Source: Pseudomonas sp.
GTDB taxonomy: Bacteria > Pseudomonadota > Gammaproteobacteria > Pseudomonadales > Pseudomonadaceae
Reading direction: 5' to 3'
NCBI GenBank assembly: GCA_007713455.1
Contig: VMRT01000001.1
Coordinates: 186,001 to 250,000 of the forward strand
DNA length: 64,000 nucleotides
Below the pieces are notes generated by a model. It made no database searches and was not told the DNA's origin. It was given only the letters and a program-made list of their open reading frames with translations. The position numbers and the translations under genes were made by a program. The first letter of the stretch is position 1, and the number at the start of each line of letters is the position of its first letter. This document shows positions 4,854 to 9,245 of the stretch, in pieces.

Positions 4854-6092
4854 ATGCCTAGCTTCCGCTATACCGGCCGCGATATGCGCGGTGCACGGGT
4901 CAGCGGCGCGCTCGATGGCGCCAGCGCTGACGCCGTGGCCAGCGAGTTGGTGTCGCGCCAGATCACCCCACTGACAATCGATGCGGAGCGCGCCCAGGCC
5001 GATAGCGTCGACGTGTTTGCCGTGCTGCGCGAGAAGCTGCGGCGCAAACGTGTCGATCTGGACGAACTGATCATCTTCAGCCGCCAGATGTACAGCCTGA
5101 ACAAGGCCGGCGTGCCGATCATCCGCGCCATCGGCGGTCTGGCCGAATCCAATCGCAACCTGTATTTCCGCGGCATCCTGCAGGACGTGCGCGCCAGCCT
5201 CGAAAGCGGCCAGTCCATGGCGGTCGCGCTGAACGCGCATCCCAAGGTGTTCAACAATCTGTTTGTCAGCATGGTCAGCGTCGGTGAGAACACCGGCCAG
5301 CTCGACCAGGCGTTCAAGCAGCTGTCTGCCTATCTCGAGCTGGAACGCGAAACCCGCAAGCGCATCAAGCAGGCCACGCGTTATCCGATCTTCGTGCTGG
5401 TGGCCATGGGGGTGGCGCTGGGCGTCATCAACCTCCTGGTGATCCCGGCGTTCGCCAAGGTCTTCGCCCAGTTCCACGCGCAACTGCCGTGGGCCACGCG
5501 CGTGCTGATCGGCACTTCCAACTTCATGCGCGACTATTGGTGGCTGTTACTGCTGGGCATCGTTGGTGGGCTCTACGCGTTCTTCAAATGGATCGAAACC
5601 GACGCCGGGCGCTTGCGCTGGGACCGCATCAAGCTGCGCCTGCCCATCGTCGGCGGCATCTTCGAACGCATCGCCCTGGCACGCTTCACCCGCACCTTCG
5701 CGATGATGTACCGCGCCGGCGTGCCGCTGCTGCAGACCCTGTCGATCAACAGCGCCAGCGTCGGCAACCAGCATATCGGCCAGGCGATTCTCGGCATTCG
5801 CGAAAGCGTTGAACGCGGCGAAGCGCTGACCCGTTCGGCGCATAACTCCGGCCTGTTCACCCCGTTGGTACTGCAGATGATGGCCGTCGGCGAAGAAACC
5901 GGCGCGCTGGATGATCTGTTCATCGAAGTCGCCGACTTCTACGAGCAGGAAGTCGACTACGACCTTAAACAGCTGGCTGATGCCATCGAGCCGATTCTTA
6001 TCGTGGCCATGGGCGTGATGGTGCTGATTCTTGCGCTCGGTGTGTTTCTGCCGATGTGGGAACTGGGTAGCGCGGCGCAGGGGAGGGGTTGA
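4854..6092 (+). CDS. mshG: MSHA inner-membrane platform protein MshG (GspF/PilC family)
   Basis: A 412-residue polytopic protein with two tandem T2SSF domains, the platform protein that contacts the MshE ATPase and passes pilins into the growing pilus. The start MPSFRYTGRDMRGARVSG is typical of the family. Membrane helices are visible near residues 178-200, 222-242 and 380-402. The chosen ATG has GGGGAG 8 bases upstream. It lies 81 bp after mshE, the widest gap so far in the operon. It is followed 44 bp later by the first prepilin gene, leaving no room for an mshF gene, which sits here in Vibrio. Confidence 0.93.
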   Translation: MPSFRYTGRDMRGARVSGALDGASADAVASELVSRQITPLTIDAERAQADSVDVFAVLREKLRRKRVDLDELIIFSRQMYSLNKAGVPIIRAIGGLAESNRNLYFRGILQDVRASLESGQSMAVALNAHPKVFNNLFVSMVSVGENTGQLDQAFKQLSAYLELERETRKRIKQATRYPIFVLVAMGVALGVINLLVIPAFAKVFAQFHAQLPWATRVLIGTSNFMRDYWWLLLLGIVGGLYAFFKWIETDAGRLRWDRIKLRLPIVGGIFERIALARFTRTFAMMYRAGVPLLQTLSINSASVGNQHIGQAILGIRESVERGEALTRSAHNSGLFTPLVLQMMAVGEETGALDDLFIEVADFYEQEVDYDLKQLADAIEPILIVAMGVMVLILALGVFLPMWELGSAAQGRG

Positions 6093-6136
6093 TGAGCTTA
6101 CGAATAGCGACATTTCACATGAGCCACGGAGGCACG

Positions 6137-6661
6137 ATGCAACGACACAAGGGTTTCACCATGATCGAGCTGGTCGTGGTCATCGCCATCCTCGGCATCC
6201 TGGCCGCGGTCGCCTTGCCACACTTCATTGACTCGGCCAAGGACGCCCACCGCGCCAGCGTGCGCAGCGCTGGTGGTGCGCTGACGTCGGCCGTCTCGCT
6301 GGTGCGCGGCCAGTACGAACTGAATCGCGGCGGCGGCAGCAATGCCTGCCTGGCAGGAAACTGCCAGATCAACGTACAGGGCTACGGCAACGGCGCGATG
6401 GATGTGAATGCCAACGGCTGGCCCGTAGGCACCGAACGCAGCGGCACTCCGCTCGCCAACACCAGCATGTCCGCCGATGAATGCCGCAACCTCTGGAGCA
6501 ACCTGCTGCAGGCCTCCTCGCAGAGCCTGACCGGCACCAACCCGGCATTCACCGCCACGGCCAACGGCACCCGCTGCCTGTTCACCTACAACCTCGATGG
6601 CGGTGACGACGTCATCGAATACAACGCCAATACCGGCGAAGTCTTCGTCAACTTCAACTGA
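6137..6661 (+). CDS. mshB: MSHA minor prepilin MshB
   Basis: A 174-residue class III prepilin. The ATG at 6137 is preferred over the in-frame ATG at 6089 because GGAGG lies just upstream and it gives a standard short leader, MQRHKG, cut before FTMIELVVVIAILGILAA. The +5 glutamate needed for assembly is present. The mature protein contains an NGWPVG motif and a C-terminal TRCLFTYN stretch, as in MshB/MshA-like pilins, with cysteines available for disulfides. Its position between mshG and the major pilin gene matches MshB. GC content is like the neighbours, unlike the next gene. Confidence 0.83.
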   Translation: MQRHKGFTMIELVVVIAILGILAAVALPHFIDSAKDAHRASVRSAGGALTSAVSLVRGQYELNRGGGSNACLAGNCQINVQGYGNGAMDVNANGWPVGTERSGTPLANTSMSADECRNLWSNLLQASSQSLTGTNPAFTATANGTRCLFTYNLDGGDDVIEYNANTGEVFVNFN

Positions 6662-6681
6662 GTCAACAAGGAGCGACAACT

Positions 6682-7131
6682 ATGAAGAAGCAACAGAGCG
6701 GTTTCACCATGATCGAGTTGATTATGGTGATTGTTATTTTGGGGATTTTGGCGGCGTTTGCTTTGCCGAGATTTGCGGACTTCACTAGTGATGCGCGCTT
6801 GGCTGCCATGCAGGGCGCAGCAGGAGCTGTTAAGTCGGCTTCGGCGATCGTTCATGCGGCTGCGCTGGCAGATCCTACAGATGCCGCGGATGGTTCCATT
6901 ACTGTAGAGGTGGCAGTTGCGTTAGAAGGTAGCTATGCGGCACCTACCGAGGACGGGATCGCTCTTGCCGCCCAGCTGAGTGATGACGACTTCGATATAA
7001 CGGAAGGGACCGACATCATCACCATAGCGGACCCCGATAGATCTACTTGCTCTTTTACATACAAAATGGCTGCGGCTGATACCTCTCCTACTATCGATAC
7101 CAGTGATCTAATCGCGGATAATTGTGATTGA
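6682..7131 (+). CDS. mshA: MSHA major pilin MshA (probable)
   Basis: A 149-residue prepilin with leader MKKQQSG cut before FTMIELIMVIVILGIL; the glutamate at precursor position 12 is the mature +5 residue. Strong AAGGAG (6668-6673) precedes the ATG. Two cysteines (C123 and C148) could form the C-terminal D-region disulfide, and the surface part is unusually acidic (SDDDFDITEGTD). Base use is clearly AT-richer than the flanking genes, with runs such as GTTATTTTGGGGATTTTG, which suggests a horizontally exchanged pilin allele. It could instead be a second minor pilin, but its order and strong RBS favour the major subunit. Confidence 0.8.
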   Translation: MKKQQSGFTMIELIMVIVILGILAAFALPRFADFTSDARLAAMQGAAGAVKSASAIVHAAALADPTDAADGSITVEVAVALEGSYAAPTEDGIALAAQLSDDDFDITEGTDIITIADPDRSTCSFTYKMAAADTSPTIDTSDLIADNCD

Positions 7132-7149
7132 GACTGAGTCTGTTTGAGC

Positions 7150-7179
7150 GAAAAGCTGTTCTGTGCATAAAAGCTTTTC
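7150..7179 (+). terminator. Possible attenuator hairpin after mshA
   Basis: A 7-bp perfect stem, GAAAAGC paired with GCTTTTC, encloses a 16-base loop in the 80-bp mshA-mshC gap. The T-rich right arm would resemble a weak intrinsic terminator. Such an element could lower expression of the minor pilin genes relative to the major pilin; this is inference from position only. Confidence 0.3.
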
Positions 7180-7211
7180 CACGTGAGCCATCTAAATAAG
7201 CGAAGCTGAAA

Positions 7212-7652
7212 ATGCGCGCCCCACAAAGCGGTTTCACGGTTATTGAGCTAGTTATAGTAATTGTGATCATTGGCATGATTGCCGTCGTACTGGGGCCGCG
7301 CTTTTTTAATCGCAAGGCATTCGACGAGCGCTTCTACTTCGAAGAAGCGCTCTCGACTGTTCGCTATGGGCAGAAACTGGCTGTGGCAAGTGGTTGCCCC
7401 ATTGCCTTTCAAATCGACGCTTCTGGATATTCATTGAGTTACAGCGGCGGTGATTGCGGTGTCATGTCTGTCGGGAACGACTATGTCAAGGCGCTGCCGG
7501 CTGGTGTTGCTGTCACTAAAACACTCGCCATAAGTTTCAATTCCCTCGGCAGCGTAAACGAAGCCTGCCCAGGCGGGCGGTGTGTGGCCATGATCGGCAG
7601 CCACACCTTCACCGTCCACGCCGCCACCGGCTTTATCGAGGTGGGTCAATGA
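7212..7652 (+). CDS. mshC: MSHA minor prepilin MshC
   Basis: A 146-residue prepilin with leader MRAPQSG cut before FTVIELVIVIVIIGMIAVV and the +5 glutamate. The C-terminal half has two cysteine pairs (GCPIAF, GDCGVM, ACPGGRC) and a GSHTFTVHAATGFI strand typical of pseudopilin-like minor subunits. It lies 80 bp after mshA and shares some of its AT-richer base use. Its TGA overlaps an ATG (ATGA at 7649), the usual coupling mark in this operon, yet no convincing prepilin follows there; mshD now starts 263 bp later, beyond a group of palindromic repeats. Confidence 0.85.
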   Translation: MRAPQSGFTVIELVIVIVIIGMIAVVLGPRFFNRKAFDERFYFEEALSTVRYGQKLAVASGCPIAFQIDASGYSLSYSGGDCGVMSVGNDYVKALPAGVAVTKTLAISFNSLGSVNEACPGGRCVAMIGSHTFTVHAATGFIEVGQ

Positions 7653-7665
7653 CTCGATTCCAGAC

Positions 7666-7886
7666 CGTAAGCTGGGTTGAGCCTGCGAAGCCCAACGAGC
7701 AGAGTATCGGCAGGTTCCGGTCATTGCTTCGATGCGCATTGGACTTCGACACCATGTTCCTCATTCACAACCTACCAGGCTTCAACGTAGGGTGGATGAC
7801 GCTTTACCCATCCACCAATGTTCTCCACGCCACCAGTCACAATCCCGCCCCATGGTGGAAAATGCTGCGCGGTTTTCCACCCTACG
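7666..7886. repeat. Cluster of REP/BIME-like palindromes in the mshC-mshD gap
   Basis: Three palindromic units fill this gap. (1) GTTGAGC at 7676-7682 faces GCCCAAC at 7690-7696, pairing over 7 bp with one G-U. (2) GGTGGAT at 7791-7797 faces ATCCACC at 7810-7816. (3) GGTGGAAAA at 7854-7862 faces TTTTCCACC at 7873-7881. The outer ends are themselves an inverted repeat: CGTAGGGTGGA at 7786-7796 and TCCACCCTACG at 7876-7886. This arrangement of two hairpins between inverted conserved ends is that of a BIME or REPIN. The sequence style resembles dispersed intergenic repeats of the P. stutzeri group, from memory and not checked. Confidence 0.75.
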
Positions 7887-7914
7887 GCCGCGCCACGGGA
7901 CCGAGGTATCAGCC

Positions 7915-8346
7915 GTGATCCGCCCTCAACGCGGGATGACCTTGGTCGAGCTGGTTATCACCATCGTCATCATCGGCATCGCCGCAGCTGCATTGTTTTC
8001 CGCCATGGCGAGCATCACCGCGCGCTCGGCCAGTCCGCTGCTACGCCAGCAGAGCGTGATGATCGCCGAAAGCTATCTGTCGACGGCGCTGGCGCTGCCT
8101 TACGATCAGCTGAGCAGCGCCGCGCAATCGGCCGCTGCACCCCGGAATCTTGCCGGTGAACCGGTTACCGAACTGGCCGGCTACTCGGTCGCGCTGTCGG
8201 TCGATGGTGCTGCCAATCTGAACGGTGTTGACGCCACCCGCATCGAGGTGACGGTGACCGATCCGCAGAACCAGTCGTTACAGCTCTCCGGTTGGCGCAC
8301 CTGCTACGGTGAGTACGACGCCTTGGGGATTGCCCTATGCCCCTGA
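7915..8346 (+). CDS. mshD: MSHA minor prepilin MshD
   Basis: A 143-residue prepilin. The GTG at 7915 is chosen because GAGG lies 8 bases upstream (7903-7906) and because it gives a standard leader, MIRPQRG, cut before MTLVELVITIVIIGIAAAALF; the frame stays open further upstream, but only through the repeat cluster. The +1 residue is methionine, which prepilin peptidase tolerates, and the +5 glutamate is present. The body is short and beta-rich, as in MshD and other GspI/PilV-like subunits. It overlaps mshO by 10 bp. Confidence 0.82.
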   Translation: MIRPQRGMTLVELVITIVIIGIAAAALFSAMASITARSASPLLRQQSVMIAESYLSTALALPYDQLSSAAQSAAAPRNLAGEPVTELAGYSVALSVDGAANLNGVDATRIEVTVTDPQNQSLQLSGWRTCYGEYDALGIALCP

Positions 8347-9245
8347 TGCGAGCGCCGAGGCGCCAGAACAGTCAGCGAGAGAGAACGTTTGCGGGCGCTG
8401 GCTCGGCATTCTTCCGTCAGGGCGTCAGGCAAACCGCAGGCAGTACCAATGGGTTCACGCTGGTCGAGCTGATCATGGTGATCGCGCTGGCCGGAGTCGT
8501 CGCGGTGATGGTCGGTACGGTCATGTCGCGGCCGTTGCAAGGCTTCGCCGACAATAGTCAGCGGGCCGAACTGACCGATCGGGCGGCGATCGCGCTCAAC
8601 CGAATGGCGCGCGATATTCGGCTAGCCGTACCAAACTCCGTCCTTGTAGCCGACACGGGCGATGAAATCAGGCTCGTTCCGATCGCGGCCGCCGGACGCT
8701 ACCGGGCCAATCAGCCGATGCCTGATGGGCCACGTCAGGATCCTCCGGCCTGTACGCAGACATCCGGCCGCTGCTTGATTGATATCCTCAGCCCGATTGA
8801 GCCGGCAGATAGCAAGAACAACAAGCATTGGCTGATCATCTATAACACCGGTTCGCTCGTCGGGCGCCCCGAGCCCGTCGATGGAGCGGTTTCGCCGGTG
8901 TCACCCAAGGCCTTCACCTGGAAAAACGGCGTGCTTGAGGCTGATCTCTCGGCTTTCCGCTTCGAGTTCGCCTCGCCGCAACATCGGTTTTTTCTGGCCG
9001 ACCGAGTTGTCGGCTATCGGTGCCGAAATGGTGCGCTGGTTCGCGCTAAGTTCGACGAACTGGCCGCGGCTGATTATTCCGGTGCCGCCACCGTGGTCGA
9101 TCGTGTCGATTGCGGCCAGAGCCAGTTCAGCTACGAACCCGGCAACAACACGCGCAACGGCCTTGTGACGCTCAAACTGGTATTGGCTGGCGCTGGCGGA
9201 ACCGTCACCCTCTTGCAGCAGGTCCAAGTCGATAATGCGCCCTGA
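8337..9245 (+). CDS. mshO: MSHA minor prepilin MshO
   Basis: A 302-residue protein with a prepilin signal GFTLVELIMVIALAGVVAVM at residues 39-58. The leader before the cleavage glycine is about 39 residues, or 36 from the ATG at 8346, far longer than the 6-8 residues of the other pilins here. No ATG, GTG or TTG codon lies in frame closer to the cleavage site, so the long leader appears real. The globular part contains cysteine pairs (CTQTSGRC, YRCRNG, VDCGQ) as in GspJ/PilW-like subunits. Gene order D-O-P-Q and the 10-bp overlap with mshD support MshO. Confidence 0.83.
   Translation: MPLMRAPRRQNSQRERTFAGAGSAFFRQGVRQTAGSTNGFTLVELIMVIALAGVVAVMVGTVMSRPLQGFADNSQRAELTDRAAIALNRMARDIRLAVPNSVLVADTGDEIRLVPIAAAGRYRANQPMPDGPRQDPPACTQTSGRCLIDILSPIEPADSKNNKHWLIIYNTGSLVGRPEPVDGAVSPVSPKAFTWKNGVLEADLSAFRFEFASPQHRFFLADRVVGYRCRNGALVRAKFDELAAADYSGAATVVDRVDCGQSQFSYEPGNNTRNGLVTLKLVLAGAGGTVTLLQQVQVDNAP

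Follow-up and report, generated by a model that had tools for sequence, protein, structure and literature searches.

REP doublets at an overlapping minor pilin gene junction of an MSHA-type operon: a probable translated bridge with counterparts in related species

How can a tightly packed pilin operon hold a cluster of repeats between two of its genes? The question is raised by a stretch of 64,000 nucleotides of Pseudomonas sp. DNA (contig VMRT01000001.1, positions 186,001 to 250,000; hereafter the window, in whose coordinates all positions are given) that carries an MSHA-type operon. The source genome comprises 4.71 Mb in 46 contigs and is the denominator for all genome-wide repeat counts. 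The Pfam domain N_methyl was found in the products called MshB, MshC, MshD and MshO and was not found in the product called MshP; we assume these gene names by analogy with MSHA operons. An earlier note made from the sequence had pointed to the tight packing of the genes elsewhere in the operon, and this is borne out by gaps of 20 nt ahead of mshB and 80 nt ahead of mshC and by overlaps of 10 nt (mshD/mshO) and 11 nt (mshO/mshP). Between mshC, which ends in CAATGACTC with TGA at 7650-7652, and the GTG of mshD at 7915 lies a spacer of 262 nt, and inside it are two GTAG-type REP doublets. The features of the junction are the following.

7212-7652, forward strand: mshC-like minor prepilin gene (open reading frame with Pfam N_methyl; its stop TGA lies within ATGA).
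7638-7652, forward strand: Shine-Dalgarno-like GAGGTGGG and the old ATGA overlap start (ATG 7649); anti-Shine-Dalgarno duplex of -7.9 kcal/mol.
7649-7918, forward strand: bridging open frame of 89 codons, mostly REP sequence, which starts in the ATGA of mshC and whose TGA overlaps the GTG of mshD.
7667-7775, forward strand: decayed REP doublet A (class A; GTAAGCTGGGTTGAGCCTGCGAAGCCCAACG ... AACCTAC); the left arm is the class A motif with 2 mismatches, the right end was placed by eye.
7786-7886, forward strand: REP doublet (REPIN) B (class B, canonical; CGTAGGGTGGATGACGC..CATCCACC ... GGTGGAAAATGC..TTTTCCACCCTACG), GTAG ends outward, spacing 90; assigned on genome copies of the end motif and on pair spacings.
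7903-7917, forward strand: Shine-Dalgarno-like GAGG and the new mshD start GTG 7915; anti-Shine-Dalgarno duplex of -7.2 kcal/mol.
7915-8346, forward strand: mshD-like minor prepilin gene (N_methyl); the leader of 7 residues, read from the GTG, ends QRG before MTLVEL.
8337-9245, forward strand: mshO-like prepilin gene (open reading frame with N_methyl), with REP-like leader sequence in two relatives (L066, L017).

Judged from sequence, it is likely that REPs were inserted at the overlapping start of mshD and that the two genes are still coupled through a translated spacer cistron. The earlier note took the repeats to split mshC from mshD. Of that reading the insertion stands and the plain split does not: the frame of the old ATG at 7649 passes through both doublets and closes at TGA 7916-7918 over GTG 7915, in a new GTGA overlap with mshD. 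The note overlooked this open frame. The doublets lie between two pilin genes yet inside an open frame of 89 codons. The mshC-mshD junction is a real REP insertion rather than a plain split, and it is probably a translated bridge and one of a recurring set.

What are the repeats? The three hairpins with inverted outer ends that the note had described are all present, at about 7668-7697 (CTGGGTTGAG..CCCAACG), at 7791-7816 (GGTGGATG/CATCCACC) and at 7847-7888, and the outer arms CGTAGGGTGGA (7786-7796) and TCCACCCTACG (7876-7886) are perfect complements. Doublet B has the marks of a GTAG-tagged REP/REPIN: a GTAG-tagged imperfect palindrome, dispersed copies and an inverted doublet at the preferred spacing. 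The repeats exceed what chance would give: the class B end motif, CGTAGGGTGGA, occurs in 70 exact copies in the 4.7-Mb genome and its reversed control in none, and a 286-base query matched at least 40 places in the genome at E ≤ 0.001, its own site counted (40 of 61 candidates scored). Among the 25 neighbour pairs within 200 nt, 14 face outward, 10 inward and 1 the same way; 13 of the 14 outward pairs are spaced 61-96 nt, and the pair at the junction 90 nt. The class A motif has 10 matches at ≤2 mismatches in this genome against 6 for its reversed control. Class A is a relic here and not a live family in this genome; cleaner copies of doublet A stand at the same position in L021 and L017.

A search for a resident transposase in this genome gave no candidate for classes A and B: Y1_Tnp had no match in this genome at E ≤ 0.001, and the class A and B motifs were absent from the 32 transposase loci scanned out of 94 matches. 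Y1_Tnp is present in 41 of 56 genus genomes, a count in which IS200-like ones are perhaps included. G005 (KOS6), whose junction is of the C+B type, has a Y1-type transposase gene (L193, G005:C2:399000-401100) with class C REPs on either side, six in all, which ties class C to a resident transposase. A plasmid search found nothing.

If the doublets are an insertion, relatives may hold the empty site. Among 56 Stutzerimonas genomes, 36 had an mshD match, loci with both genes were obtained for 34, and 33 junctions were readable; L098, in which the "bridge" is a frameshifted mshC end, and L039/L053, with a run of N over the junction, were left out. A bare 4-nt ATGA overlap joins mshC and mshD in 11 of the 33, three of which have a 15-nt junction identical to another's. 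REPs of three classes (A, B and C) occupy the same place in 16, and the remaining six (L028, L029, L030, L042, L045, L050) have other spacers in which no REP was recognized. The REP-bearing junctions contain A+B (L009, L040, L010, L017), B with a diverged first half (L011, L012), A alone (L021), B alone (L016, L018, L023, L044, L046), C (L019, L022) or C+B (L013); L041, very decayed, was counted on a class B match at 6 mismatches. Outside the genus, Pseudomonas flexibilis (L070) has a different REP-like inverted pair at the same place. L040 (G060), of the same species, equals S. chloritidismutans AW-1 (L052) over the junction, and several congeners are identical to named Stutzerimonas records across REP-bearing junctions; this identifies the genus as Stutzerimonas. 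These comparisons support the earlier proposal that a BIME-like insertion displaced the coupling start, and the empty site with an ATGA overlap that it predicted in relatives is the one found in the 11 bare junctions. An equally long gap without repeats, which would have spoken against insertion, was seen in none of the 33: the longest distances from stop codon to cleavage site without a recognized REP are 121 nt (L045) and 95 nt (L029) versus 280 nt here. One of these spacers, in L045 (G076), is a REP-free bridge of 31 codons that begins MRQRG like a duplicated mshD leader start and is followed by a second ATG start, in the same layout; it is treated separately below.

Because the mshD tree scatters the junction types, insertions are indistinguishable from exchange of junctions. 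A different explanation is that mshB-mshC alleles are exchanged by recombination which the repeats mark or promote, and that the repeats are retained as borders of the cassette. In comparison with L052, of the same species, mshA is 100% and mshD 94% identical but mshB only 45% and the start of mshC 70%, and several relatives have class E REPs between mshB and mshC. Identity with L052 recovers, however, inside mshC ahead of the REP junction (90% in the rest of mshC, 94% in the bridge), the mshB-mshC gap of this genome has no REP match (class A, B and C motifs; class E by eye), and variable pilin genes are expected even without REPs. We therefore regard cassette borders as quite unlikely. More generally, mshB and mshC (6682-7649; compared with L052, L010, L011 and L051) are hypervariable between conserved neighbours, which looks like allele replacement, while mshD is 86-93% identical across the five nearest genomes.

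Returning to insertion with coupling through the spacer, the layout of the reading frames recurs with the repeats. In all 17 REP-bearing junctions (the 16 of the genus and L070), the path from the old ATGA/GTGA start to the next pilin gene is open. It takes three forms: a bridge of 57-123 codons ending in TGA over the ATG/GTG of mshD in 8 (L009, L040, L010, L011, L012, L013, L019, L021), a frame that continues into mshD in 5 (L016, L018, L022, L041, L070), and a frame that continues into an additional pilin gene in 4 (L017, L023, L044, L046). This extra prepilin gene, which stands between mshC and mshD, is MshA-like by eye and in frame with the upstream REP sequence.

In the window, both ends of the spacer are 4-nt stop/start overlaps, ATGA at 7649 and GTGA at 7915. 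In a background of 2000 random positions, 5% reach an anti-Shine-Dalgarno energy of -7.2 kcal/mol and 10% reach -6.3 kcal/mol. Where the bridge starts, all eight bridging junctions have values between -5.9 and -7.9; this site overlaps conserved mshC codons and may for that reason be kept for mshC. At the mshD start it is -6.9 to -7.7 in seven of the eight (-7.2 in the relatives L040, L010 and L011, -6.9 in L012), L019 being weak at -4.3. Other in-frame starts of mshD lie upstream, among them a GTG that gives a leader of 27 residues and is conserved in the clade; the ATG next to it, at 7852, has a poor Shine-Dalgarno sequence.

Is the open path more than chance? Over 18 inserts (the 17 and the non-REP L045), the bridging frame has 0 stop codons, against 38 and 40 for the two remaining frames. 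Shuffling gives a single REP insert a chance of being open of P 0.06-0.65; the product of these chances, a rough figure, is ~1e-7 on the assumption of ten independent lineages and ~2e-3 on that of five, and the independent insertions cannot be counted because the junctions share ancestry and perhaps recombination. The mshB-mshC gap, which separates two genes without overlap, was the control. Class E REPs (GTAGGGCGGGTGCAAGCC) lie there in L053:828-900, L054, L060, L077-L079, L081 and L082. The frame matching the bridge is open in one of the eight loci (L081) and all frames are broken in the other seven; two of the gaps, of 640 nt in L078 and 339 nt in L082, are long, and another gene may lie within them. 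In 14 other REP clusters of this genome (≥69 nt), 27 of 84 frames are open, and therefore the openness of one doublet says little by itself. Of the other doublets that lie within operons of this genome, two were inspected closely, L170 before a gene we take to be hmgA-like and L158 before one we take to be xdhC-like. The first is in an open frame with no sign of use, and both downstream genes have their own Shine-Dalgarno-like site. As further bridges these two were rejected: judged from sequence, they look like untranslated spacers.

The same data bear on another possibility, namely an ordinary intergenic REP insertion in which GC-rich repeats poor in stop codons leave an open frame as a by-product, with mshD initiating from its own Shine-Dalgarno sequence. 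The site of -7.2 kcal/mol at mshD would serve such initiation, and the chance openness of single inserts, the open frames in other clusters, the doublet before the hmgA-like gene and the unconstrained class C peptides described below all agree with it. A by-product would account less well for a relevant frame that is open in 17 of 17 junctions against 1 of 8 at the mshB-mshC gap, for the exact overlap offset in 8 of 8 bridges, and for the REP codons that the leaders of L016, L018 and L022 have to include. We consider this possibility unlikely. Instead, we infer that the bridge is translated, that ribosomes restart at its two ends and that there is selection for openness.

If the bridge is translated, is its peptide maintained? 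L009 and L010 give an in-frame dN/dS of 0.36 as against 0.94 and 1.34 for the shifted frames (0.35, 1.00 and 1.25 in a second computation), with synonymous change in excess (p = 0.001). The other nine pairs of the A+B clade have in-frame values of 0.38-0.79, mostly slightly under those of the shifted frames; L040-L011 gives 0.78 in frame versus 0.78 and 0.89. Gap runs in the alignments are 9, 3 and 3 in the A+B clade and 48 and 3 in the clade with the extra pilin. When the observed substitutions are placed at random, the frame stays open in 16-26% of cases for diverged A+B pairs, a weak test alone. The class C pairs, with dN/dS of 1.08, 1.99 and 0.78, reveal no constraint, and the gap runs in their alignment measure 1, 7 and 80 where the ends of the junctions differ. 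Because the class C pairs are unconstrained and most of the in-frame signal in A+B is slight, we read the bridge as a passage for ribosomes and not as a protein. A functional small protein made from the bridge was rejected as a candidate on the unconstrained class C peptides and on the 89-residue frame, which had no Pfam match at E ≤ 0.1.

The repeats might also act as RNA. Their hairpins could attenuate the distal mshD, stall ribosomes after mshC or block 3' exonucleases, in that way tuning the stoichiometry of the minor pilins. Local hairpins are present in the spacer, and the accessible text of PMC3733652 describes REPs as commonly proposed post-transcriptional control elements. The fold of the transcript, however, is no better than that of shuffles (z = 0.38), doublet A is decayed, and a consensus scan found no intrinsic terminator (hairpin plus T-run) between 7653 and 7914. 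A search of Rfam over 6000-9000 gave three matches at E ≤ 1, all far under gathering scores and all animal RNAs. On the fold, the Rfam result and the lack of a terminator-like site, an attenuator or structured RNA was rejected. If the frame is translated, elongating ribosomes would in addition unwind the hairpins. Action as RNA thus seems very unlikely, and the role as attenuator or RNase barrier that the earlier note had suggested finds no support in the sequence of the spacer.

What sets the place of insertion apart? The repeats stand behind the start codon and ahead of the prepilin cleavage site, in DNA that encodes the leader to be removed. In L016 and L018 (leader of 27 or 20 residues) and L022 (69 or 29), every in-frame ATG, GTG or TTG is within or before the REP; because none lies behind it, the leader must include REP codons if these pilins are made. 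For L023 and L046, the decayed right arm, as placed by eye, contains the last ATG/GTG/TTG start available. L041, L017 and L044 have an ATG behind the REP, and in these the REP codons may not be part of the pilin made. The pattern extends to a second gene: the MshO leader of S. stutzeri K1 (L066) contains a class B doublet in frame and must include REP codons, and the MshO leader of L017 contains a single REP-like palindrome in frame. In the window, the mshO leader (8337-8453) has 39 residues and no recognized REP, in line with leaders tolerating extension. Among 396 distinct sequences with a prepilin-like start in the loci covered, 21 have a REP in the open frame ahead of the cleavage site. 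They comprise 5 class E matches before mshC with a likely start behind the REP, 5 A+B bridges in the frame of mshD and 11 in-frame leader cases. We infer that leaders tolerate extension and that this may be the reason why the repeats landed there. More tentatively, and with somewhat less than even confidence, we suggest that leader-coding segments of prepilin genes are landing sites for REPs, which are domesticated either as leader or as a translated spacer cistron that carries ribosomes between overlapping pilin genes; such spacers could tune the ratios of minor pilins.

We, therefore, propose the following course of events. An ancestor would have acquired doublets A and B immediately after the ATGA at which the start of mshD overlapped mshC, in leader DNA; prepilin peptidase cuts off the short leader encoded at the insertion site. 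In this species, the insert would have shifted the frame, so that MshD now starts at the GTG directly after it, while the old ATG would have been retained as the start of the 89-codon frame through both doublets. On leaving mshC, ribosomes would begin anew at ATG 7649, read through the repeats, stop at 7918 and start once more at GTG 7915. The spacer cistron would keep the genes coupled, and its peptide need do nothing. REPs may persist in leader-coding DNA as long as ribosomes can pass.

Alternating REPs inside operons are known from the BIMEs of enterobacteria. The junction shares this arrangement; however, its family is the GTAG family of pseudomonads, and a reading frame passes through it. 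Translational coupling by ATGA or GTGA overlaps is also known. The same 4-nt overlaps stand at both ends of the spacer, except that coupling here would go via a repeat-derived cistron and not directly from one gene to the next.

GTAG REPs, their doublets and their occurrence inside genes have already been described (PMC3733652; PMC3116915). As far as the accessible text of these papers characterizes them, GTAG-tagged REPs/REPINs have the same GTAG head, imperfect palindrome, outward inverted doublet and dispersed family as doublet B; most are intergenic, whereas the junction REPs sit where genes overlap, inside a frame that joins the two genes. Intragenic REPs and the Rickettsia palindromic elements, as covered in the accessible part of PMC3733652, are likewise palindromic repeats that add codons to proteins, some of them N-terminally, but at these junctions they are codons of a cleavable prepilin leader or of a spacer cistron that stands apart. 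Many N-terminal REP cases are regarded in that part of PMC3733652 as probably extragenic; in L016, L018 and L022, by contrast, no ATG, GTG or TTG lies behind the repeat. Among the titles and abstracts listed in the literature searched, which lacked most subscription papers, none reported REPs in prepilin leaders or coupling bridged by REPs.

REPs are extragenic by name and reputation, and this junction places them in an open path. With several REP classes at one junction in different species, and a way to the next gene left open for ribosomes in each case, it provides a natural series on how selfish repeats are tolerated in tightly overlapped operons. It is also a caution for annotation, in which stretches of this kind might be labelled plain intergenic space or unknown proteins. 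The findings suggest that repeats can supply codons to a part of a protein that is thrown away once export is complete. If the more tentative reading on landing sites is true, these junctions would represent a class of translated mobile repeats that are kept for the passage of ribosomes and not for the peptide.
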